From the NCBI RefSeq assembly GCF_001425485.1, contig NZ_LMQW01000053.1, forward strand, positions 63,312-127,311: a stretch of DNA of 64,000 bases. Direction: 5' to 3'. Positions 43,511-60,234 of this stretch are shown here, piece by piece. Both the position numbers and the translations under genes were made by a program. Under the pieces are notes generated by a model. The model worked only from the letters and a program-made list of their open reading frames with translations. It was not told the origin of the DNA and did not search any database. Origin of the DNA: Aureimonas sp. Leaf427. Lineage in GTDB: Bacteria; Pseudomonadota; Alphaproteobacteria; Rhizobiales; Rhizobiaceae. Position 1 is the first letter of the stretch, and each line of letters begins with the position of its first letter.

Positions 43511-44166
43511 TGAACCTCGTCGACATCCGCGAGCGCGCCGAACGTCGGCAGCAGGCCGCGCACCAGAACCAGAGCTTCCATCGCGAGCAGCTGTCCAAGG
43601 CAGAGGCGGAGGAGGGGGATCTCGGTATCATCATCGACGGGATCGACGACCTGATCGAGGCGCAGGCTACGTTCGCGAAGATCATGCACGGCGCGTCGCC
43701 CGAGCTTCTCGCCGCTATCGGCGCGACCGAGACGACCACTGGCACCATACCGGCCATCCCGGCTGAGGAGCCGGTCGCTGAAGAGGTCGGCGTCGGAACG
43801 CCGCCCGCCGCGGTCGAGCCGCCTGTCGCTCCGAAGCGCGCGGTTGCCCGCAAGGCGAAGGAAGCCCCTGCCGATCCCATAGTCCAAGCCGCCGCCAAAC
43901 CGCCAGCACCCGCCGACGCGCCGCGTCCGACAGACGCCGCCCTCGACGCCAAGGTGCTCGACATCATGCAGCGCGCGGCGGCCAGCGGCGATGGGCAGGC
44001 GATGTTCGACATGGCGACGTTGGCCGGCAAGATGGAAGTCACCTCCCTCGCGCTCGACAAGTCCTTCACCCGCCTGGCCGAGGCCGGCCGCATCGTGCGC
44101 CAGAGGTGCGAGCTTAAGGGCCATGCCGCGTTCGAGGTGATCGCCGAGACGGAGGCGGCGGAGTGA
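43507..44166 (+). CDS. hypothetical phage protein with Ala/Pro linker
   Basis: 219 residues. N-terminal coiled coil (IRERAERRQQAAHQNQSFHR), an Ala/Pro/Val-rich linker (about 85-140) and a C-terminal domain that looks like a winged helix (LDKSFTRLAEAGRIVRQRCE). Function unknown; perhaps a DNA-bound accessory for the replication genes that follow. Confidence 0.65.
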   Translation: MMNLVDIRERAERRQQAAHQNQSFHREQLSKAEAEEGDLGIIIDGIDDLIEAQATFAKIMHGASPELLAAIGATETTTGTIPAIPAEEPVAEEVGVGTPPAAVEPPVAPKRAVARKAKEAPADPIVQAAAKPPAPADAPRPTDAALDAKVLDIMQRAAASGDGQAMFDMATLAGKMEVTSLALDKSFTRLAEAGRIVRQRCELKGHAAFEVIAETEAAE

Positions 44167-45281
44167 CAATCTCCACATTCCTCGACGGCCGGGTACGGCT
44201 TCATCTGGGCGATGTGCGGGAGCGGCTCGCCCTCATGCCCGAAGGTTCGATCGACTGTGTCGTGACCTCGCCGCCTTACTTCGGCCTTCGCGATTACGGG
44301 ATGCTTGGTCAGATCGGAATGGAAGCTACGCCTGCTGAGTTCGTCGCGGCACTGGTCCAGGTGTTCCGGCAGGTGCGTCGCGTCCTGAAAGCCGATGGAT
44401 CACTCTGGCTGAACATCGGCGACAGCTATGCGGGATCGTGGGGCGCGCAGTCTCGAGGAGATGACACGCCCGGCACCTTGGAAGGTGGGTCGATGATCTC
44501 GGCGCGCCAGATTGCCGCTCACCCAAGAGGGCAGTCCGGGACAGGATCGCTCAAGCGCACGCCCGGATTGAAGCCGAAAGACCTCATGATGATTCCGGCG
44601 CGCGTCGCGATCGCCCTTCAGGATGACGGCTGGTATCTGCGGCAAGACATCATCTGGCACAAGCCGAACCCGATGCCGGAGAGCGTACGCGATCGCTGCA
44701 CCAAGGCGCATGAGTATGTCTTCCTCCTCACCAAGTCGCCTCGTTATTTCTACGATGCTGACGCAATCGCAGAGGGCCTCGCGCCAGCTTCGGTCGGTCG
44801 TCTCGCGCAGGTAGGTCTCGCATCTCAGGCAGGTTCTTCTCGCGTCCCTGGTAAGGCGAATGGGGCCATGAAGGCAGTCGCGGGCGGAAGAAAGCGTGGC
44901 GTTCCTCCTCGCCATGCTTCCTACGAAAGCAGCGATCAGTCGGGCCTTGATGACGTTGGCCGCGGCTATCGCAATAAGCGATCCGTCTGGTCGATCTCAA
45001 CGCAGCCGTTCTCTGATGCGCATTTCGCCACCATGGCGCCGGAGCTTGCGGAGACGTGCATCCTCGCCGGCTGCCCGAAGGGCGGCACCGTTCTCGACCC
45101 GTTTGGCGGCGCAGGCACTACCGCTCTGGTCGCGCTACGCCATGGCCGTAAGGCCGAGCTGATCGAGTTGAACCCCGACTACGCGGCAATGGCGCGGCGC
45201 CGGATCGAGACGGAATGGCGGGTATCGATTCCATCTGTAGGCTCCGACTTCGGGCCCCTTTTTTCGGAGTCCGCAGCATGA
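44163..45281 (+). CDS. site-specific DNA methyltransferase (N4-cytosine or N6-adenine, beta class)
   Basis: 372 residues starting with GTG. The catalytic motif TSPPYFGLRDYG is at 35-46 and the SAM-binding motif DPFGGAGTT at 312-320, the reversed order of beta-class enzymes. SPPY more often marks N4-cytosine enzymes, DPPY adenine ones. A long insert (about 95-290) probably holds target recognition. No cognate restriction enzyme is seen, so it is a solitary phage methyltransferase. Confidence 0.88.
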   Translation: MTISTFLDGRVRLHLGDVRERLALMPEGSIDCVVTSPPYFGLRDYGMLGQIGMEATPAEFVAALVQVFRQVRRVLKADGSLWLNIGDSYAGSWGAQSRGDDTPGTLEGGSMISARQIAAHPRGQSGTGSLKRTPGLKPKDLMMIPARVAIALQDDGWYLRQDIIWHKPNPMPESVRDRCTKAHEYVFLLTKSPRYFYDADAIAEGLAPASVGRLAQVGLASQAGSSRVPGKANGAMKAVAGGRKRGVPPRHASYESSDQSGLDDVGRGYRNKRSVWSISTQPFSDAHFATMAPELAETCILAGCPKGGTVLDPFGGAGTTALVALRHGRKAELIELNPDYAAMARRRIETEWRVSIPSVGSDFGPLFSESAA

Positions 45282-47444: not shown

Positions 47445-47875
47445 CCAACGCCAAGAGCCATCTAGACCAGTTCCTAGACGGCATTGGCGTTCGCCTGGTG
47501 CCGGTGGCACGCCGGCGCCGCGGTGCCCAGAGCCACGCCCGGGCCACCATGCGCGAGATCCTGAACGATCACGGCGGCGATCACCTCGCGCTCGTGCTCC
47601 GCTTCATCCGCGACAGCGAGGGGAACAAGGGCGCGCTTTGGTCCGAGACCATCGGCGCCGTGTCGGACATCCTCCTGCAGCGTCCAGACTGGGCGGAGAG
47701 GCCGTCCGACGTCTTCGCCGCACTCGACACCATCGATCTGAACGACGCGCGCCGTGAGGCCGTCCTGCGCCGCCCTTGGCCGGTCCGACAAACCCTCCGC
47801 GCCTACCTCTACCGTGACCTGCAGCGCGCGCTCGACGCCCGCATTGATCAAGACCTTCTCGGAGCTGCCGCATGA
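47441..47875 (+). CDS. hypothetical phage protein
   Basis: 144 residues, all-helical, with MREILNDHGGDHLALVLRFI and SETIGAVSDILLQRP. This pattern recurs in alphaproteobacterial prophages near replication genes but has no assigned role. Overlaps the next gene by 4 bp. Confidence 0.65.
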   Translation: MTNAKSHLDQFLDGIGVRLVPVARRRRGAQSHARATMREILNDHGGDHLALVLRFIRDSEGNKGALWSETIGAVSDILLQRPDWAERPSDVFAALDTIDLNDARREAVLRRPWPVRQTLRAYLYRDLQRALDARIDQDLLGAAA

Positions 47876-48864
47876 AAATGATCACCCAATCTGAGCTCAT
47901 GCAGCTCTTTTCATACGATCCTTCCACCGGAGACTTCACGCGGCTTTCCCGTATTCGACGGCATCAAGCCGGCGAGACTGCCGGTTGGACCGATGATCGA
48001 GGCTATCGGCGCATCAAGATTGATGGGCGAAACCACTTCGCGCACCGTTTGGCATGGCTTTACGTCCATGGGACGCTCCCAACTCAAATCGATCACATCA
48101 ACCAGGACACTGGCGATAATCGGATTGCCAATCTGCGTGACGCGACCCATGCTCTTAACCAGAGGAACAAGCGCAATTCGTCGTTGTATCGACCGCCATC
48201 AACCATGCGGCCATGGAGCTTCGAGGAAGAGGCAATCCTCGCGCCGCTGATCATTTTGGCAAAGGCCCGCTTTGTTGAGGCTGCAGACACGTTCGCTCAT
48301 CTCGGACCCGAGTACACCGGTCCATCTCTGATGCGATCAGTCTGGCCCACGTATGCCTCAACAACTCTGGGCGGGCATGACGTTGGCTACGGCGGGAATG
48401 GTCAGAGGGTGATCTACCGGCCAAATTCAGCAGCAGTCTCCAGAGCGGAGGAGGTTGTCAGCCAATGGGTTCCGACGATCCGTCAGCAAGACGACAGAGT
48501 GCTAGCTGGAGCCTGGGCTCAGTGTCTTGCCGCACCTCGGATTGCGGGGTCTTGGCGTTCATATTGTCGGGAGAAGAGACTAAATCGAACCACCGCAGAC
48601 AGACACGTTTTCAGTGCATTCCATAGTGTTGCTGTAGGCTTATCGAAAAACTCTCAAATGTTGCACGAGCCTGATTGGGTTCGGCTAGTGCCAAGGTTCC
48701 CAATCTCGGGTACTGACATTGATATGGTCGCAGAACGTGTGACAGAGCGCGCCAACCACTGGCGAGCCGACGACGCAAAGCCGACCAGCCAGCCCGACAT
48801 GCGCGATACCTCGTGGGCCGAAGGGCAGAACGAGATGCGGCGTCGTCGGGTGGCGAACGGATAG
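47872..48864 (+). CDS. HNH endonuclease fused to a DUF6362-like phage domain
   Basis: 330 residues. Residues 1-105 are an HNH homing-type endonuclease: YRRIKIDGRNHFAHRLAWLY and THALNQRNKRNSS, with QIDHINQDTGDNRIANLRDA as the HNH core. Residues from about 112 (MRPWSFEEEAILAPLI) on have the WP...WRSYCREKRLNRTTADRH pattern of DUF6362-like phage proteins. An in-frame Met at 48205 marks the join. Base composition is lower in GC than the neighbours. The fusion probably arose by insertion of a mobile HNH gene. Confidence 0.7.
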   Translation: MKMITQSELMQLFSYDPSTGDFTRLSRIRRHQAGETAGWTDDRGYRRIKIDGRNHFAHRLAWLYVHGTLPTQIDHINQDTGDNRIANLRDATHALNQRNKRNSSLYRPPSTMRPWSFEEEAILAPLIILAKARFVEAADTFAHLGPEYTGPSLMRSVWPTYASTTLGGHDVGYGGNGQRVIYRPNSAAVSRAEEVVSQWVPTIRQQDDRVLAGAWAQCLAAPRIAGSWRSYCREKRLNRTTADRHVFSAFHSVAVGLSKNSQMLHEPDWVRLVPRFPISGTDIDMVAERVTERANHWRADDAKPTSQPDMRDTSWAEGQNEMRRRRVANG

Positions 48865-49259
48865 CAGATCGGCCTCCGCATAGGGCCGTTGGCGATGAGC
48901 GTAATCCGGACAAAGCGGAACAAGGTCGGACGCGGGGGCAGCGCCCGCCGCCTCCACCAAGACCACACCGGCCAGTGCGGGACACCCGTTTAAGGCCCAA
49001 GCCTCTGATCAAGGTCACTCCCTAAGATAGGTGGGAGAGCTGCGAATCCGGTGTGGTCTTGATGGGGGCGAAACAGGATCGACGGCCTAGGGAAGTGGCG
49101 AACGCGCTCGGGAATGGCTCCACCCTCATCGGGCCGAACGGAAAGCTGTCAACGACAACTCTCCCCACTCGGGTCTCGCCCTCGCGGCGTGATGTCTGAC
49201 GGGCCGCCGGCGCCTTGGAACAGAAGCCCGGCACCGATCGCAGCAGCAGGAATGCGCAG
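48865..49259. other. gene-free stretch with a 104-bp inverted-repeat structure
   Basis: No convincing coding frame in these 395 bp. A 14-bp perfect inverted repeat, 48958-48971 (CAAGACCACACCGG) and 49048-49061, extends to 18 bp with one mismatch and encloses 76 bp. It lies upstream of the terminase genes, where many phages keep the cos or pac packaging site, so a packaging site or a structured RNA is plausible. Confidence 0.5.
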
Positions 49260-49973: not shown

Positions 49974-50143
49974 TGCCGCCCTGCCGATCCTGTGAAGAGC
50001 GCCGGCGCATGCTCTCCGACGCCAAGGCCAAGGACGGCATCAAGGGTATGGTGCGAGCCATCCCAGCTGTCGGGCGGCATCTGATGGCGAACCCGCCGAA
50101 GCTGAAGGACGACGATGCCAGCGCTCAGCAACGCGAAGCATGA
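49973..50143 (+). CDS. small CxxC phage protein
   Basis: 56 residues beginning MPPCRSCEERRRMLSDAKAK with a single CxxC and a basic helix. It overlaps the terminase small-subunit gene by 29 bp. Supported by coupling on the left (TGATG) and codon pattern. Confidence 0.55.
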   Translation: MPPCRSCEERRRMLSDAKAKDGIKGMVRAIPAVGRHLMANPPKLKDDDASAQQREA

Positions 50144-50600
50144 GGCATTCGCTCGTGCGCTCGCAAAGGGCTCCAGCGCGGTCGACGCATATGCCAAGGC
50201 GGGATATGCCCCAAACAGGTCCCACGCCTCCCGGCTGGTCGCAAATGGTAACGTGCGGAAGCGGGTGTCCGAACTGCAGCGCGACGCCGCCGGACGAGCC
50301 AAGGTGACAATCCAGAGCATCGCCGACCAACTCGACGAGGACCGCGCCTTCGCTCGTCTCCAGGGGCAGGCCAAGGCAGCGATCGACGCGACCATGAACA
50401 AGGCAAAGCTCCTCGGCCTCTACAGCGAGCGTCGTGAGGTGTCCGGCCCTGGCGGGGGCCCCATCCAGACCGTGGACCTGACGAACCTCTCCGATGACCA
50501 GCTTACCGCCCTCGAAGATATCTTCGGCCCGCTTGCCGCCGGCGCCGATGATGATGAGGATGCTGCGAGCGGAGAGGGCGAGGCGGACCCAACAGGCTGA
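50115..50600 (+). CDS. terS: phage terminase small subunit
   Basis: 161 residues. The N-terminal helix-turn-helix LSNAKHEAFARALAKGSSAV with DAYAKAGYAPNRSHASRLV is the terminase small-subunit pattern; LGLYSERREVSG marks the oligomerisation end. It recognises the packaging site. Overlaps the large-subunit gene. Confidence 0.85.
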   Translation: MPALSNAKHEAFARALAKGSSAVDAYAKAGYAPNRSHASRLVANGNVRKRVSELQRDAAGRAKVTIQSIADQLDEDRAFARLQGQAKAAIDATMNKAKLLGLYSERREVSGPGGGPIQTVDLTNLSDDQLTALEDIFGPLAAGADDDEDAASGEGEADPTG

Positions 50601-52020
50601 GCGCGACCGCGTCGCAAAGGACGCCGAACGTATCCGGGCCAAGTGCCAGACGCTCTCCGGGTTCGTCCGCGAGGCCTGGCATGTGCTGGAGCCCACAGCG
50701 AAATACACCCACGGCTGGCACATCGACGCCATCTGCGCGCATCTGGAAGCGGTGACCGACGGCCGGATCAACCGGCTTCTGATCAACGTGCCGCCGGGCT
50801 CATCGAAATCCCTGCTCGTCTCTGTGATGTGGCAGGCGTGGGAATGGGGCCCGCGCGGGCTTTCCTCGCTCCGCTACCTTACCACCTCCTTCAACGATGG
50901 CCCGGTGAAGCGCGACACGCGCAAGTGCCGCGACCTGATGCTGTCGGACTGGTATCGGTCGCTTTGGCCCGAGGTCGAGCTGAACCGCACCGGCGAGACG
51001 TCGTTCTCGAACACGAAGACCGGCACGCGAGAAGGCGTCCCGTTCGGTTCCCTGACGTCGCAGCGTGGCGACCGGCTGGTGATCGACGATCCGCACTCGA
51101 CCGAGACCGCGGAATCGGCAGCCGATCGCCTCGCCACGACCCGCAAGTTCCGAGAGGGCGCGCAGAACCGCCTCAACGATCAAGAGCGCTCGGCCATCGT
51201 GGTCATCATGCAGCGCCTTCACGAAGAGGACGTGTCGGGCGTCATCGCCAAAGTCGGGATGGAATACGTCCACCTGATGCTGCCGATGGAGTTCGAGCCG
51301 GAGCGGGTCTGCACCACAGAGATCGGGTTCACGGACCCGCGCAAGCACGAGGGCGATCTCCTTGACCCCGTCAGGTTCGGGCCTGAGGCGGTCGCCAAGC
51401 TCAAGCGCGACATGGGCAGTTATGCCTATGCCGGCCAGTACCAACAGCGCCCGGCACCCCGCGCAGGCGGCATGTTCCAGCGCGGCGATTTCGAGATCGT
51501 TGATGCAGTCCCGGCCGGCGCAGTGCGCTGCAGGGCTTGGGATTTCGCCGCCAGCACGCCAAAGCCGGGCAAGCAGCCCGATTGGACCGTGGGGCTGCGC
51601 ATGGCCTACGTCGATGGGCTCTTCTTCGTGGAGGATGTCCGGCGGGATCGCTGGTCGCCGGCCGACGTCGAACGCAACCTGAAGAACATCGCCACCCAAG
51701 ACGGGCAGATGGTCCGCATACGGATGCCGCAGGATCCTGGCGCCGCCGGCAAGTCAGACGCTCATACGAAGGTCAAGATCCTCGCCGGCTACGACGTGAA
51801 GGTTGTCCCGCCGACAGGTGAGAAGGCTCTCCGCGCCAAGCCGGCATCAGCACAGACCGAGGCAGGGAACGTCAGGCTGCTTCGAGGGCCTTGGAACGAC
51901 GCCTTCCTCGATGAGGTCTGCTCGTTTCCGAATTCGCAGTTCGACGATCAGGTGGACGCCTTCGCCGACGCTCTAAACGAGCTCGCGCTCGGGTCCAGCT
52001 ACACCCTCGCCAACCTCTAG
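50548..52020 (+). CDS. terL: phage terminase large subunit
   Basis: 490 residues. The ATPase has NVPPGSSKSLLVSVMW (Walker A) and GDRLVIDDPHS (Walker B); the RNase H-like nuclease has RAWDFAAS and FDDQVDAFADALNELALG. It pumps and cuts DNA during packaging. The start is one of four closely spaced ATGs (50548-50560) inside the small-subunit gene; the exact one is unclear. Confidence 0.93.
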   Translation: MMMRMLRAERARRTQQAERDRVAKDAERIRAKCQTLSGFVREAWHVLEPTAKYTHGWHIDAICAHLEAVTDGRINRLLINVPPGSSKSLLVSVMWQAWEWGPRGLSSLRYLTTSFNDGPVKRDTRKCRDLMLSDWYRSLWPEVELNRTGETSFSNTKTGTREGVPFGSLTSQRGDRLVIDDPHSTETAESAADRLATTRKFREGAQNRLNDQERSAIVVIMQRLHEEDVSGVIAKVGMEYVHLMLPMEFEPERVCTTEIGFTDPRKHEGDLLDPVRFGPEAVAKLKRDMGSYAYAGQYQQRPAPRAGGMFQRGDFEIVDAVPAGAVRCRAWDFAASTPKPGKQPDWTVGLRMAYVDGLFFVEDVRRDRWSPADVERNLKNIATQDGQMVRIRMPQDPGAAGKSDAHTKVKILAGYDVKVVPPTGEKALRAKPASAQTEAGNVRLLRGPWNDAFLDEVCSFPNSQFDDQVDAFADALNELALGSSYTLANL

Positions 52021-52028
52021 GACCGTCG

Positions 52029-53846
52029 ATGCGCATCCCGTTCCTGGACAGCCTGACCAATCTCATCACAGGGATGGGCGGGTCGAAGGAAAAGGGCGCG
52101 TCCACAGTCTATGCCTTCGTGCCGATGCAGGCTGGCGAGCTGGATGCGGCCTATCGCGGGTCTTGGCTGCCCAGGAAAGTCGTCGACATCCCGGCGATGG
52201 ACATGTGCCGCGCATGGCGCGCATGGCAGGCCGACGACGACCAGATCGAGAAGCTGGAGGCTGAGGAGAAGCGCCTCGACGTGCAGCGGAAGGTGCTGGA
52301 GGCGAAGACCAAGGCGCGGCTCTACGGCGGCGCGGCGATCGTGATCAGCGATGGTTCGCAGCTGCCGGGCGAGGAGCTTCGGCCGGAGCGAATGCAGCGC
52401 GGCAAGATCGAGTTCCTGACGGTGATGACGCCGCAGCATCTCACAGCGGGCGAGATCGATCGCGATCCGCTGTCGCGCACGTTCGGCCAGCCGCGGTTCT
52501 ACACGATCCAGGGCGCCACAGGCACTCAGGTCAAGGTCCACGCCTCGCGTGTGGTCCGGTTCCTCGGTAACCCGGTTCCTGACGATGCTCATGTCCTGCA
52601 CCAAGGCTGGGGCGACAGCATCCTCGAGACCGTCAGCCGCGCGCTGAAGGACGCGGAATCGGCAGCCGGCAACATCGCGGAGATGACGCACGAGGCCAAG
52701 CTCGACGTGGTCCGCATCCCGAACTTGATGGCCTTCGCGTCTCAGCCCGAATACGAGGCTCGGTTCCTCCGCCGCATGACCCTGGCCGGCATGGCGAAGG
52801 GCATCCACAACATGCTCATCCTCGACAAGGAGGAGGAGTGGGAGACCAAGCAGCTGTCTTTCGCGACGCTGCCCGAGGTGCTGGACCGCTTCCTGCAGAT
52901 CGCTTCAGGCGCGGCCGACATCCCCGCCACGCGCCTTCTGGGCCAGTCGCCGGCCGGCATGAACGCCACCGGGGAATCGGACCTGATCAACTACTACGAT
53001 CGGATCAGCGCGGGGCAGAACCTTGAACTCGGCCCGGCCCTGTCGATCCTCGACGAATGCCTGATCTGGTCCGCGCTCGGCAGCCGGCCGGCGGAGATCC
53101 ACTACCGCTGGCTCCCGCTCTGGCAGCTGAGCGAGAAGGACAAGGCCGACGTCGGGCTGAAGAAGGCGCAGGCCTTCCAGATCGACGTCAACGGCGGGCT
53201 CTTCCCCGACAGCGCCATGTCCAAGGCTCGGCGCAATCAGCTGGTCGAGGACGGCACCTATCCGGGGCTCGAGGCGGCGCTCGACGAGGCTGCGGCGGAA
53301 GGCGACGAGATCGACTTCTCCGCCAAGGCTGCAGAGCCCGAGGTCGACCCGGCCGAGACGGCATCCATCCTGCGCATGCGGGCCGCTGCGAACGATGCGG
53401 CGCCCGCCACGCTCTACGTGCACCGCAAGGTGAAGAACGGCGCGGAGATCATCGCCTGGGCCAAGCGGCAGGGCTTCACCTCCACGCTGGAGGCGTCTGA
53501 CCTTCACGTCACCATCGCCTTCTCACGCCAACCCGTCGACTGGATGGCCGTTGGCGAGACATGGGAGAGCGAGATCAAGATCGCTGCTGGCGGACCGCGC
53601 CTCATGGAGCAGTTCGGCGAGGCGACCGTGCTTCTCATCTCCTCGCGCTCGCTGAAGTGGCGACATGAGGAGATCATCGCGGCGGGCGCGTCGTGGGATC
53701 ATCCCGAGTACCAGCCGCACATCACGATCAGCTACGGCGGGGCACCGGCGGACCTGACGAAGGTGCAGGCCTACCAGGGCGAGATCGTGCTCGGGCCGGA
53801 GATCTTCGAGCCGCTTGACGAGGACTGGAAGGCGAAGGTGACATGA
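52029..53846 (+). CDS. phage portal protein (DUF1073) with C-terminal Acb1-type 2H phosphoesterase
   Basis: 605 residues. Residues 1 to about 430 are the DUF1073 portal: YRGSWLPRKVVDIPAMDMCR, MTPQHLTAGEIDRDPLSRTF and PATRLLGQSPAGMNATGESD. Residues about 455-600 are a 2H phosphoesterase of the anti-CBASS Acb1 type with two H-x-T motifs, His493/Thr495 (DLHVTIAFS) and His564/Thr566 (QPHITISYG). Acb1 degrades the cyclic nucleotide signals of CBASS immunity. The linker is Ala/Glu-rich. Portal and Acb1 families are both firm; enzyme activity of this fusion is inferred. Confidence 0.9.
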   Translation: MRIPFLDSLTNLITGMGGSKEKGASTVYAFVPMQAGELDAAYRGSWLPRKVVDIPAMDMCRAWRAWQADDDQIEKLEAEEKRLDVQRKVLEAKTKARLYGGAAIVISDGSQLPGEELRPERMQRGKIEFLTVMTPQHLTAGEIDRDPLSRTFGQPRFYTIQGATGTQVKVHASRVVRFLGNPVPDDAHVLHQGWGDSILETVSRALKDAESAAGNIAEMTHEAKLDVVRIPNLMAFASQPEYEARFLRRMTLAGMAKGIHNMLILDKEEEWETKQLSFATLPEVLDRFLQIASGAADIPATRLLGQSPAGMNATGESDLINYYDRISAGQNLELGPALSILDECLIWSALGSRPAEIHYRWLPLWQLSEKDKADVGLKKAQAFQIDVNGGLFPDSAMSKARRNQLVEDGTYPGLEAALDEAAAEGDEIDFSAKAAEPEVDPAETASILRMRAAANDAAPATLYVHRKVKNGAEIIAWAKRQGFTSTLEASDLHVTIAFSRQPVDWMAVGETWESEIKIAAGGPRLMEQFGEATVLLISSRSLKWRHEEIIAAGASWDHPEYQPHITISYGGAPADLTKVQAYQGEIVLGPEIFEPLDEDWKAKVT

Positions 53847-54321: not shown

Positions 54322-55152
54322 ATGCAGACCTTCAACCTCGCCCGCCTCGCTGCCGCCAAGACCCGCCGCGCCTCCGTCACGCTCCCGCCGATCGTGGACA
54401 GCGGCGGGGCGCAGAAGGAATATCTCCGCGCAGAGCGGGCCATGCTGCGGGCTCTGGCGGCGCGGACCATGTCCGACGTTGTCCCGCAGGTGGAAGCCGA
54501 GATCGCCCGCCAGAGGTCAGCCCTGACGCAGGACGCGCTCTTCTCGGGCATGTTCGAGACGCTGAAAGATCTGGCCGTCACGCTCGGCATCATCGCGGAG
54601 GGCACGGTCAGCCGCATCCTTGGGCTTGAGGCCGGCCGCCACACCGAGAAGTGGAAGGCCTCTGTCCGGTCCACGCTGGGCATCGACATCGCTGCGGTCG
54701 TCTCGCAGGAGGACTTGGGCGACAAGCTGCAGGACGCGGTGGGGCGCAACGCCTCGCTGATCAAGAGCCTCGCCAGCGACACCGTCGCGAAGGTGGAGCG
54801 GGCCGCCTATGACGCGGTGCTGCAGGGCCAGACGGCCAAGCAGTTCCGCGAGCGCCTGACGGAGGAGTTCGGGGTCGCCGATCGCCGCGCCAAGGTCATC
54901 GCGCGGGATCAGGTCGCCAAGCTGACAAGCGATCTCAACCGCTTTCGGCATGTGCAGGCCGGCGTCACGTCTTACGCCTGGAGCACGTCGCACGACGAGC
55001 GGGTGAGGGCGCGGCACAAGGCTCTTGAGGGCAAGGAATACGAATACGGGAAGCCGACGGACGCTGAGAACGGCTTGCCACCTGGGCAGCCTATCCAGTG
55101 CCGGTGCGTTGCGCGCGGGATCGTCTACTTCGACGGTGAGCGCTTCGACTGA
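54322..55152 (+). CDS. phage minor head protein, MuF-like
   Basis: 276 residues. The MuF domain lies near the C-terminus: ADRRAKVIARDQVAKLTSDL, then YAWSTSHDERVRARHKALEG and QCRCVARG. MuF proteins enter the procapsid with the portal and may be ejected with DNA. No toxin domain follows the MuF part. Confidence 0.88.
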   Translation: MQTFNLARLAAAKTRRASVTLPPIVDSGGAQKEYLRAERAMLRALAARTMSDVVPQVEAEIARQRSALTQDALFSGMFETLKDLAVTLGIIAEGTVSRILGLEAGRHTEKWKASVRSTLGIDIAAVVSQEDLGDKLQDAVGRNASLIKSLASDTVAKVERAAYDAVLQGQTAKQFRERLTEEFGVADRRAKVIARDQVAKLTSDLNRFRHVQAGVTSYAWSTSHDERVRARHKALEGKEYEYGKPTDAENGLPPGQPIQCRCVARGIVYFDGERFD

Positions 55153-55412: not shown

Positions 55413-56555
55413 ATGAAATTCACCGACGCTGCACCGATCGCGGACACGCGACGGACGGCAGACGGCTATCTCGTCGCGGACGCGCGCATCGTGCGCACCG
55501 GCATCCAGGCCTACACCGGCGCGGAGGTCGGCAAGCCCGATCTCGCCATCGTCCGGGTCTACCGGCCCGAGGCGGAGGTCTTCGACGCCAAGAGCCTCGC
55601 CTCCTTCAGCCATGTCCCGATCACGAACGACCATCCGACGGTCGCGGTCACGGCCGACAACTGGAAAGACCTGGCAGTCGGGGAGACCAGCGGCGAGGTT
55701 CTTCGCGACGGTCACCGCCTGCGCATTCCCCTGATCGTCAAGGATGCCTCCGCCATCGCGTCGATCGAGGGCGGGAAGCGCGAGCTTTCCGCCGGATACA
55801 CCTGCGACCTCGCTTTCGAGAGCGGCAAGACCGCCGACGGCGAGTCCTACGACGCCATCCAGAAGAACATCCGGGCCAACCACGTCGCGATCGTCGCGCG
55901 AGGGCGGGCGGGTGCCGAATGCCGCATCGGCGATGCTGCCGGCGGACCATGGGGCGCCGCCCCGATCAACGATGCCAATCACTCACAGGAGGGCCGTATG
56001 GCCGATGCTCTGCGCAAGGTGATGGTCGACGGGCTGCAGGTCGAGACGACCGACGCGGGCGCCGCTGCCATCGAGAAGATCACGAAGGACAAGCAGGCGG
56101 TCGAGACCCGTCTCTCGGATGCCGAGAAGGCGCACGTCACCGCGCTCGCGGCCAAGGATGCCGAACTCGCCAAGAAGGACGCCGCGATCGACGATCTGAA
56201 GGGGAAGGTGCTGTCCGACGCCGATCTCGACAAGCGCGTCCAGGACCGCGCGCTGCTCGTCACGGTCGCCGGCATGATCGCCAAGGACGTGAAGACCGCG
56301 GGCCTCTCGGATGCTGCGATCAAGAAGGCCGTCGTCGTCGCCAAGCTCGGGGATGCCGCAGTGGCCGGCAAGTCCGACGCCTACTTCGACGCGCGTTTCG
56401 ACATCCTCGCGGAGGACGCCGCCAAGGCCGACCCGCTGCGCGATGCACTGCTCGGCCAGCCGCAGCCCGTCACCGACGCTGCCGTTCCCGAAGCTGCCTG
56501 GAAGGCGATGGTCGCCGACATGCAGGCCGCGTCCCGTCCCTCCAAGGCCGCCTGA
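55413..56555 (+). CDS. DUF2213 prohead protease fused to scaffold
   Basis: 380 residues. The protease part (1-190) has VPITNDHPTV with His74 and GGKRELSAGYT with Ser126, the likely catalytic pair of DUF2213. After about residue 195 comes a coiled-coil scaffold (AKDAELAKKDAAIDDLKGKV). It would mature the head shell. An internal start at 55998 may make the scaffold part alone. Confidence 0.85.
   Translation: MKFTDAAPIADTRRTADGYLVADARIVRTGIQAYTGAEVGKPDLAIVRVYRPEAEVFDAKSLASFSHVPITNDHPTVAVTADNWKDLAVGETSGEVLRDGHRLRIPLIVKDASAIASIEGGKRELSAGYTCDLAFESGKTADGESYDAIQKNIRANHVAIVARGRAGAECRIGDAAGGPWGAAPINDANHSQEGRMADALRKVMVDGLQVETTDAGAAAIEKITKDKQAVETRLSDAEKAHVTALAAKDAELAKKDAAIDDLKGKVLSDADLDKRVQDRALLVTVAGMIAKDVKTAGLSDAAIKKAVVVAKLGDAAVAGKSDAYFDARFDILAEDAAKADPLRDALLGQPQPVTDAAVPEAAWKAMVADMQAASRPSKAA
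55998..56555 (+). CDS. internal in-frame scaffold protein (nested start)
   Basis: 185 residues, same frame as the protease gene. ATG 55998 is preceded by AGGAGGG at 55987-55993, a perfect Shine-Dalgarno at normal spacing. The predicted product is exactly the coiled-coil scaffold part. Lambda C/Nu3 is the known parallel. Confidence 0.6.
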   Translation: MADALRKVMVDGLQVETTDAGAAAIEKITKDKQAVETRLSDAEKAHVTALAAKDAELAKKDAAIDDLKGKVLSDADLDKRVQDRALLVTVAGMIAKDVKTAGLSDAAIKKAVVVAKLGDAAVAGKSDAYFDARFDILAEDAAKADPLRDALLGQPQPVTDAAVPEAAWKAMVADMQAASRPSKAA

Positions 56556-57051: not shown

Positions 57052-58029
57052 ATGAACATGCAACGCCAGGCCTTCGCAGACGCGCAGGCAGCGTACCCCT
57101 TCGTCCTCGCGCAGGGGCGCAACATCGAGACGCGGATCTATCAGCGCCGCTACCCGACCTTCAACTACGCGGCCCATGTGCCCGTGGTCACGGAAGGCAA
57201 CGAGTGGGCGATCGGAACCACGTTCTTCACGATCGACACCGCGGGCGAGGCCAAGTTCCTCTCCGGCGCCGGCACCGACATGCCGTTCAACCAGGCGACC
57301 CGCGATCAGGCGAGCCAGGACTTCGCCATGATCGGCTCCGGCTGGGAATGGAACATTGAGGAGGTCAATCAGGCGGCCCTTTACGGGATCAACCTGAACG
57401 ACACGAAGGCGATCTCCGCGGCGGACAAGGTCGAGCGCCTGCTCAACTCCGTTGCCATGGTTGGCGCCGCCGAGAAGGGCTGGACCGGCTTCGCGAACAA
57501 CCCGCTGGTGACGCGCATCGATGTTCCTGCCAACGGCACGGGCTCGTCTCGGCTCTGGTCTACCAAGACGGTCGATCTGATTCTGAACGACATCAACAAC
57601 CTGCTCGCCAGCATCCGCAGCAACACAGCTGAAACGGAGTGGGCGGACAGCGTGCGTCTGCCGCCGGATGCCTTCCGGCTGCTCTCGACCATCCGCGTCG
57701 GCTCCGGTGACTTCCTCATCAGCGGGCTCGAGTATCTGCAGAAGGGGAACATCTACACGGCCGAGACCGGACAGGCGCTCGACATCAAGCCGCTTCGTGA
57801 ACTCGGCGCAGCCGGCGCCGGCGGCACGGGCCGGATGGTCGCTTACCGCAAGGACCCGGAGGTTCTGCGCTTCCATCTCCCGATGCCGCGGCGGGTTCTG
57901 CCGACCCGTCAGAAGTCCATCATGGGCTTCGAGACCGGCATCATCGCGCGCACCGGTGGCACGGAAGTCCGTCTCCCCGGCGCCATGGCCTACGCGGACG
58001 GTATGTCGCCGGCCCCGAGCGTTCAGTAA
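57052..58029 (+). CDS. major capsid protein (DUF2184)
   Basis: 325 residues, matching DUF2184 with IETRIYQRRYPTFNYAAHVP, GWEWNIEEVNQAALYGINLN and LRFHLPMPRRVLPTRQKSIM. HK97-fold capsid subunits of this family build the heads of several contractile-tailed phages. Two bp after the cement gene. Confidence 0.9.
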   Translation: MNMQRQAFADAQAAYPFVLAQGRNIETRIYQRRYPTFNYAAHVPVVTEGNEWAIGTTFFTIDTAGEAKFLSGAGTDMPFNQATRDQASQDFAMIGSGWEWNIEEVNQAALYGINLNDTKAISAADKVERLLNSVAMVGAAEKGWTGFANNPLVTRIDVPANGTGSSRLWSTKTVDLILNDINNLLASIRSNTAETEWADSVRLPPDAFRLLSTIRVGSGDFLISGLEYLQKGNIYTAETGQALDIKPLRELGAAGAGGTGRMVAYRKDPEVLRFHLPMPRRVLPTRQKSIMGFETGIIARTGGTEVRLPGAMAYADGMSPAPSVQ

Positions 58030-58668: not shown

Positions 58669-60234
58669 ATGGCCCGGTCCTCTCGCATGCGGCTGATGCG
58701 TCCGATCAATGGCGGGCCGAATGCGCCTATTCCAGGCTCGTTCTCCCCTGGCGCGGGTGGTGGGGTTGTTCCCGTCCTGCCGACGCCGGTTCTTTTGGAA
58801 GCCTTCGAGAGCCTCACCGGCTTCACCATCGGCGGCAATCCCGTCTCCTCGATCGACGCGACGACCAAACTTCGCGGCGCCGGCGCGATCCGGCTGGAAG
58901 GGCGCGGCACCGGCACGACGATGACGCTGACGAAGTCGGAGGGCACGATCGACCTCGCAGCCGACGACGTTCTGGTCTGGGCGACCCACGTCGAGAAGCC
59001 CACGATCGACGCTTATGCAGCCAACATTCAGATCGAGCGCGGCGGTAACGGCACCTATTACGGGCCTGGCGCGGCGGGCGGGCGGCCCGCCATGCTCTAC
59101 AACGGCAACCTCGGCACGACGGGCTTTCGGTTCGAGGCTGCAACGGTTCCCGAGTTCGGCTGCGCTCTCGGCCCCGCAGTCACGAACGTCCGTGCCCGCG
59201 ACGACTTCGGCGTGACCGGCATTGGCACGGGCCTCAACCCGGTCATTCGTCACGCTGGCCTGTGGAAGACTAAGGCGTTCCCAGGCACGGTCGTCCTGAC
59301 CAATGACGATGCCATGGCGAGCTTTCTTGCTAACGTCGCGCCCGCACTGGACGCCGCCGGCATCCCAATGTCGCACTATCTGCCGTGGGAACAGGTTGAG
59401 GCTGGCGCCGCGGGCAAGGCATCGAAGGCCACATATCAGGCTCGCTACGCCAAGGGCGACGACATCTGCCTCGACGGCCATCCCCTCGACCAGTCGGTCA
59501 CGACCTATGCCAATCCCGATGCTTGGCTCGCCAAGATGGCGGAAGGCGACCAGTGGCTTGTGAACAACGGGTGGACGCGCGGCCGGGGCCACACGACGTT
59601 TCCGAACGCCGACAAGGCGATCCTGCCAGCGACGAAGATCGTTGCCGCCGTCACCGCAAACGGCACGACCACGCTGGCCGTCACGAGCAAAAGCGCCGGC
59701 ACCATCGCCAACGGTCAGAGCGTTTACGGCTACCTCGTTCCCGCGGGCACGGTCGTCGTAAATGCCGCGGATCAGGCCAATCCGATCCTGAACAATCCGA
59801 TCCCCGCCGGCACGCCGAAGGTGACGTTCATCGACGAGACCGGCGTCTGGGCCGTTGGTCAGGCGCAGGCCAAGCTCGCCGCGTCCAAGTTCTGGAAGTC
59901 CGCGACCACGGGCGTTCGAGGCTCGGGGCAGGACAATGTCATGTTCACCCGCTTCGGGGTTCCGCAGCCGTTTGACCTCTGGCGCAAGTCGCACACCGAC
60001 CTGAGCTGGGCTGCGGCACAGCCCGAATACGATCGCGTCGTGGCGACGGGCGGCACGCTGATCCCGCTGTTCCACGGTTCTTATGCGGGCGCTACGGGTC
60101 TCGACACGCCGCCTGAGTTCTTCACGGCCGGCATGATCCCGTGGGCTGCCCCGCTGGTTGCTGCCGGCAAGCTGCAGTTCCTGACGCTGTCGCAGTGGTG
60201 GGCGCGCGACGGCGGCGCGACGGTGCCGGCCTGA
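58669..60234 (+). CDS. polysaccharide deacetylase-like virion-region protein
   Basis: 521 residues. An N-terminal beta domain (about 42-200) is followed by a carbohydrate-esterase-4-like domain: TVVLTNDDA at 207-215 (Asp213/214), DGHPLDQS at 269-276 (His271), TRFG at 427-430 and LFHGS at 467-471 (His469). These fit motifs 1, 2, 3 and 5 of NodB-type deacetylases. A beta-rich insert occupies about 318-395. It may remodel the host surface polysaccharide. Ribosome site GGAG. Confidence 0.65.
   Translation: MARSSRMRLMRPINGGPNAPIPGSFSPGAGGGVVPVLPTPVLLEAFESLTGFTIGGNPVSSIDATTKLRGAGAIRLEGRGTGTTMTLTKSEGTIDLAADDVLVWATHVEKPTIDAYAANIQIERGGNGTYYGPGAAGGRPAMLYNGNLGTTGFRFEAATVPEFGCALGPAVTNVRARDDFGVTGIGTGLNPVIRHAGLWKTKAFPGTVVLTNDDAMASFLANVAPALDAAGIPMSHYLPWEQVEAGAAGKASKATYQARYAKGDDICLDGHPLDQSVTTYANPDAWLAKMAEGDQWLVNNGWTRGRGHTTFPNADKAILPATKIVAAVTANGTTTLAVTSKSAGTIANGQSVYGYLVPAGTVVVNAADQANPILNNPIPAGTPKVTFIDETGVWAVGQAQAKLAASKFWKSATTGVRGSGQDNVMFTRFGVPQPFDLWRKSHTDLSWAAAQPEYDRVVATGGTLIPLFHGSYAGATGLDTPPEFFTAGMIPWAAPLVAAGKLQFLTLSQWWARDGGATVPA

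Follow-up and report, generated by a model that had tools for sequence, protein, structure and literature searches.

The window analysed here is a stretch of 64,000 nucleotides from Aureimonas sp. Leaf427. It contains a 605-aa open reading frame with an ATG start (52029–53846, + strand) that joins a phage portal protein to an Acb1-type 2H phosphoesterase domain. Frame, coordinates and motifs were checked and are as an earlier sequence-only reading had given them. The neighbouring genes, from terminase to capsid, are evidently the head-gene cluster of a prophage in a 5.4-Mb genome. The features are as follows.

50115–50600: terminase small subunit
50494–52020, + strand: terminase large subunit (Terminase_6C); the true start may lie further in
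52029–53846, + strand: portal–Acb1 fusion ORF, 605 aa (ORF call, Pfam)
52140–53180, + strand: Phage_portal_3 (PF06381) region, residues 38–384 (Pfam, E 1.7e-107)
53322–53396, + strand: predicted flexible linker, approximately residues 432–456, from the portal C-terminal helices to the enzyme domain (pLDDT)
53409–53834, + strand: Acb1 (PF23474) 2H phosphoesterase domain, residues 461–602 (Pfam 155.9 bits, model, Foldseek to 7t26)
53415–53417, + strand: Y463, aligned with Y12 of T4 Acb1, whose base-stacking role is described in passages of PMC9117128
53505–53513, + strand: first catalytic motif, H493-V-T495 (T4 H44, T46), from motif scan and alignment
53718–53726, + strand: second catalytic motif, H564-I-T566 (T4 H113, T115), from motif scan and alignment
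53826–53828, + strand: W600, aligned with the lid residue W147 of T4 Acb1
54322–55152, + strand: MuF-like head protein (PF04233), with no second Pfam domain
55413–56555, + strand: DUF2213 head maturation protease (PF09979, phrog_530)
57052–58029, + strand: major capsid protein (PF09950)

Identical copies (100%) of the portal occur in two IMG/VR contigs, and the next closest portals found by pattern scans of viral and genome contigs are those of one viral contig and of Aureimonas prophages (73%). The strand opposite the fusion ORF holds overlapping ORFs of 263 and 200 aa, with two stops in the frame read; these are probably chance frames of GC-rich DNA.

A Pfam profile search matched residues 38–384 to Phage_portal_3 with an E-value of 1.7e-107 and residues 461–602 to Acb1 with 155.9 bits, where the curated cut-off is 27. 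With scores of this size, neither match is due to chance. A phmmer search with the whole protein matched the PDB entry for the portal of phage Pam3 (8hds, E 3.3e-150), and one with just the C-terminal domain matched the Acb1 of FBB1 (7t26, E 1.3e-10). The portal family PHROG 146 covers the Acb1 domain too. The sequence-only reading had proposed a fusion of a portal and an Acb1-family 2H enzyme from two H-x-T motifs, and these are present where it placed them (HVT at 493–495, HIT at 564–566). The motif pair alone is weak evidence, since at least two H-x-[ST] motifs fell within the last 165 residues in 3.9% of 20,000 shuffles; the proposal is borne out by the two profile matches together with an aligned catalytic tetrad.

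The same reading had suggested comparing a predicted structure with Acb1, and this comparison also came out in its favor. A model of the domain alone (29 sequences, pLDDT = 90.8, pTM = 0.85) is a confident 2H fold whose best match in the PDB is FBB1 Acb1 (7t26), with a TM-score of 0.73 by query and 0.79 by target at 29% identity. In the Foldseek ranking, 7t26 and 7t27 take the first two places, with LigT and further 2H enzymes after them. For the full-length model (51 sequences), the mean pLDDT is 84.8; values are mostly 84–95 per block in the domain and fall below 50 at residues 432–440 and 446–456, both within the linker. The best Foldseek match of this model is again 8hds (E 1.2e-31), indicating a portal fold.

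The Pseudanabaena phage Pam3 portal is a full-length homologue (41% identity) that carries an Acb1 domain in its sequence. According to the phage record, this domain is 46% identical to that of the Leaf427 protein, and its second motif is HIS in place of HIT. The 8hds sequence has 621 residues, compared to 442 in the Foldseek chain, so that approximately 179 are missing. The Pam3 domain would be expected first among the matches of the domain model, yet it is not among the 50 listed of 119; it is thus apparently outside the solved coordinates, and may be either flexible or removed in the virion model. Two further phages are described in passages of structural papers: for E217, whose portal is related, residues 97–528 out of 765 were built and the C-terminal barrel extends into the head (PMC10329688), and residues 529–765 have no discernible density in Pa193 (PMC11042391).

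The key residues of Acb1 were taken from passages of PMC9117128, the numbering of which agrees with T4 57B. The tetrad H493/T495 and H564/T566 aligns to H44/T46 and H113/T115, and Y463, E594 and W600 align to Y12, E141 and W147 in the sequence alignment. T4 57B and FBB1 Acb1 (7t26, 7t27) share with the Leaf427 domain the 2H fold, the HxT/HxT tetrad and the Y12, E141 and W147 positions. In contrast, T4 Acb1 is encoded by a free-standing gene and is not part of a virion protein, and the positions of W74 and F107 differ, being occupied by E527 and H558 respectively by sequence alignment only.

Across 132 distinct fused relatives, H493 is conserved in 131, and T495, H564 and Y463 in every one; the residue at 566 is T in 101 relatives and S in the other 31. 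The single exception at the first histidine (L045) has R. Part of this set came from a viral scan that used an HVT-containing pattern besides the portal pattern, so the first motif was partly selected. The genome-contig sample was found with a portal-core pattern only, and there the H, T and H were kept in 48 of 48 fused loci (46 distinct domains), with T in 35 and S in 13 at the fourth position. The remaining Acb1 positions are more variable among the 132 relatives. The W74 position is E, D, S or A in all of them and never W; aromatic residues (W, F or Y) fill the F107 position in 92, with H in a further 38; E stands at the E141 position in 90; and the W147 position is W in 77 and lies past the protein end in 48.

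For pairs of relatives with dS of 0.1–1.5 in both parts, the median dN/dS over 38 non-overlapping pairs was 0.123 for the domain and 0.089 for the portal core. The domain exceeded a dN/dS of 1 in none of 287 pairs and evolved faster than the portal core in 177 of them. Both parts are under purifying selection. From this and the residue conservation, the domain is likely to be enzymatically active, and the family and fold make cyclic nucleotides its likeliest substrate.

The fusion is not confined to this prophage. A tblastn search with the portal–Acb1 protein matched 2333 of 50,697 phage records, 33 of them over at least 80% of its length, 31 as one piece (some being repeat records of the same phages) and two as two pieces. 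Where hosts are given, the 31 belong to phages of Rhizobium, Sinorhizobium, Aminobacter, Pseudomonas and cyanobacteria. A genome-contig sample of 80 loci comprised 48 fused loci, 32 with the portal only and none with a separate neighbouring Acb1 gene; the 80 were the best of 161 relatives, with long matches favoured, and the sample is consequently biased towards fused loci. When all loci are pooled and classified with profiles built here, both parts lie in one ORF at 148 (which include three copies of the window's own gene), in separate ORFs at two, portal only at 36, Acb1 only at two and neither at five.

Overlapping samples of 385, 397 and 398 genomes, drawn from the class, order and phylum respectively, contained eight different genomes above the Acb1 cut-off, the window's own included. 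The match lies in an open frame of more than 600 aa in six and in frames of 146–147 aa in two. Five of the six long frames match the portal profile made here. The sixth (L009) joins Acb1 to a portal of another Pfam family (PF04860) and has a C-terminal stretch of approximately 170 aa without a Pfam match. Weaker Acb1 matches, under the cut-off, occur in six further genomes of these samples.

The two-piece phage records are Yong-M3-232 and Edwardsiella phage ZHS. In Yong-M3-232 (L006 1593–2144), portal and Acb1 are two overlapping ORFs, and the sole difference over the gene from the fused Ssp-JY40 (L026) is a tandem duplication of 127 bp, which could be an error of assembly. In ZHS, a separate Acb1 gene lies upstream of the portal. 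With one record split and one gene separate, the fusion is not always kept. Two proteins labelled as prohead proteases, DSS3P8 gp129 (L003 4989–5441) and ZHS_4 (L005 2116–2715), were considered as protease fusions and rejected; both are Acb1-family by the profile built here, and ZHS_4 matches PF23474 with 79.4 bits.

The presence of the domain changes often along the portal phylogeny. A portal-core tree of 171 rows requires 25 changes between fused and not fused, and the label is clustered on it, as none of 500 shuffles was as low as 25. A tree of 108 portal rows made with a better model, for which rows were thinned by similarity within each state and cores shorter than 380 aa were dropped, requires 19 changes, of which 18 are forced by supported branches; nine long end branches were flagged. 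All 500 label shuffles on this second tree were as low as 19, which says little since the thinning within each state preceded the count.

Seven pairs of close loci (78–92% identity around the portal) were then compared as DNA. In three of them (L018/L023, L048/L157 and L043/L158), homology restarts approximately 5 bases or less from the fused stop codon, so that the exchanged stretch is the domain and part of the linker; its place is taken by about 610, 570 and 80 bp, respectively. The pair L090/L170 has about 760 bp against about 60 bp, and in L135/L173, L008/L007 and L027/L176 the exchange extends further downstream. A tblastn search found no Acb1 remnant in the 36 portal-only loci. Most of ten portal-only loci that were inspected have opposite-strand ORFs behind the portal, some of gene length. 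The domain dS was more than twice the portal dS in five of 38 close pairs (0.94 and 0.18 in L074/L091) and less than half in one, and the excess suggests that recombination has exchanged the domain in some pairs. From these sequence comparisons, the Acb1 domain comes and goes between close portals as removable cargo with its active site kept.

Other enzymes occupy the same place. In Aureimonas fodinaquatilis (L129), Acb1 is replaced by a domain related by phmmer to the PBECR3 domains of L017 and of Rhizobium phage N28_2. Locus L017 has the order portal–Acb1–PBECR3 (PBECR3 45.7 bits, cut-off 30), and in N28_2 the PBECR3 is an ORF of its own behind a domain-less portal. PBECR-type RNases on portal or MuF proteins are described in passages of PMC5512222 and represent enzyme cargo on head proteins of these same kinds, including the same slot in L129 and L017; unlike Acb1, the family is an RNase family and not 2H. 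A 2H domain can also have a different carrier. In L201 (1354–3003), a 2H domain precedes a DUF2213 head maturation protease in one ORF, and the portal is without a domain. This 2H domain matches PF13563 with 30.0 bits (cut-off 27) and Acb1 with 23.9 bits, under the cut-off, and has the motifs HVT and HVS. Used as a query, it recovered a single identical sequence among viral contigs (L205) and matched seven phage records with 31–35% identity, none over 80% of the query. Judging from these few matches, this second fusion seems to be rare. The portal and the maturation protease would have the head interior or head assembly in common as carriers.

A coupling of the domain to the MuF gene was considered and set aside. 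Among the 133 fused loci that reach DUF2213, 34 have a MuF gene between portal and DUF2213 and 99 do not; among the 33 portal-only loci that reach it, four have one. Another 15 fused and three portal-only loci did not reach DUF2213 and were left out.

The architecture itself has been reported before, as the sequence-only reading had said. Passages of PMC5512222 (2017) describe 2H domains fused to MuF or portal proteins and suggest either RNase action or degradation of defence nucleotides, and passages of PMC9503650 (2022) take such fusions as suggesting that the enzyme is packaged and injected so as to counter (oligo)nucleotide signalling. In so far as these passages describe them, the portal- and MuF-fused 2H phosphoesterases have the same architecture as the Leaf427 protein; loss and gain, the swapping of cargo at the site, residue conservation and the Pam3 structure are added here. 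The word portal is absent from the main text of the Acb1 paper (PMC9117128), and the portions of the literature covered by searches of Acb1, 2H phosphoesterase and anti-CBASS with portal contain no assay of a fused portal–Acb1 or portal–2H protein.

Taken together, the explanation that we prefer, and to which we give an even chance, is that the last ~145 residues are a working Acb1-type nuclease carried as dispensable portal cargo in the head, from which it is released and ejected or in which it acts. The domain would be metal-independent and would cut cyclic di- or trinucleotide alarm signals of CBASS. A flexible linker of approximately 25 residues would tie it to the C-terminal end of the portal and, since this end projects into the head in E217, up to twelve copies may sit in the head lumen. 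Either the linker would be cleaved and the domain ejected with the DNA, or the domain would act otherwise from the head. The occurrence of a fusion instead of a neighbouring gene suggests that its place matters.

Weighing against this explanation are E527 and H558 at the W74 and F107 positions, the variation among relatives at the E141 and W147 positions, the counts of SMODS given below, and Yong-M3-232 and ZHS, in which the fusion is not kept. In addition, the portal remains in the particle, so a tethered domain could not enter the cell unless it were cut. Our guess is that the maturation protease makes this cut, for which the DUF2213 protein encoded downstream would be the candidate. No conserved cleavage site was found in the variable linker besides a D-A-x-P at its end, which stands just before the domain in 139 of 145 complete fused ORFs. 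As a cleavage site this motif was rejected: A-x-P also precedes the domain in L009 and in the free-standing ZHS protein, and hence D-A-x-P may belong to the domain's own start.

The preferred explanation can be extended, tentatively, to the inner face of the head as a general dock for interchangeable cassettes, which would be cut loose and ejected and would disarm cyclic-nucleotide immunity before phage gene expression. The C-terminus of the portal would bear Acb1, a PBECR-type RNase, the two together or neither, and the maturation protease would bear a 2H domain.

The strongest competing explanation, possible though distinctly less probable than carriage and release, retains the enzyme and dispenses with delivery. 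The portal would be made late, and unassembled subunits or procapsids would degrade the signal inside the infected cell just when CBASS fires. The onset of CBASS is described as late in passages of PMC9117128, and both the two overlapping ORFs of the Yong-M3-232 record and the separate Acb1 gene upstream of the ZHS portal fit this explanation. However, a separate gene in the operon would do equally well for this purpose, yet 48 of the best 80 of 161 loci (long matches favoured) are fused, none has it separate and 32 lack it.

An active 2H enzyme that acts on something else, for instance on 2′,3′-cyclic RNA ends or linear oligonucleotides, is unlikely. The domain would then serve as an effector that processes RNA, in a slot where RNases also occur, as the PBECR-type cargo of L129 and L017 illustrates, and an RNase role for such 2H domains is proposed in passages of PMC5512222. 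The W74 of Acb1 is kept in 0 of 132 relatives and F107 is a histidine in the Leaf427 protein, which fits this alternative; however, the nearest match in both sequence and fold is Acb1 and not the LigT-type enzymes, and the Y12, E141 and W147 positions are kept. A structural use, which the sequence-only reading had also allowed, or an inactive domain kept for portal or head assembly is very improbable: the span of PHROG family 146 shows the domain to be common in this portal family and one of the 132 relatives (L045) has R for the first histidine, but the domain has been lost repeatedly between close relatives, is apparently absent from the Pam3 portal coordinates and, in the sample selected by the portal, keeps its catalytic histidines at all 48 fused loci. 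Overall, that earlier interpretation is partly supported: the portal–Acb1 architecture with its tetrad, the predicted 2H fold and the prior record of such fusions are borne out, and cleavage of cyclic nucleotides and twelve copies in every virion stay proposals.

The immune repertoire of the hosts was surveyed through SMODS, a single CD-NTase family. No SMODS match above the cut-off was found in the lysogen's own genome, and six of 60 relatives, own genome counted, have one. A link between the domain and SMODS CD-NTases in the lysogen was rejected. The genomes compared were those of 42 fused loci (out of 48 in the genome-contig sample) and 31 portal-only loci (out of 32); a match above the cut-off occurs in eight of the former and five of the latter, which is no clear difference. 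Lysogens are not the hosts that a phage must defeat, and these counts neither help nor hurt a connection of the domain with CBASS.

If the domain is active and delivered, the phage would carry an antidote to CBASS within its particle and would not have to express one, and one of its virion proteins would have a second role as an enzyme of immune evasion. Because the cargo is removable and kept with its active site intact, carriage of an enzyme by the particle becomes testable, and the close phage pairs with and without the domain that exist in nature offer a direct comparison with nothing to build.

The prophage region has further genes on either side of the head cluster. Behind the capsid gene, a 521-aa ORF (58669–60234, + strand) has no Pfam match; by eye it resembles a polysaccharide deacetylase and may be one. 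Upstream of the terminase lie an N6/N4 DNA methyltransferase (44163–45281) and an HNH endonuclease-like protein (47872–48864), both on the + strand, and a permuted tmRNA gene (48885–49192, + strand; RF04321 99.4 bits, RF01849 83.2 bits) with the ARAGORN tag VNDNSPHSGLALAA. A second, full-length tmRNA (287 bits) is present on another contig of the same genome.
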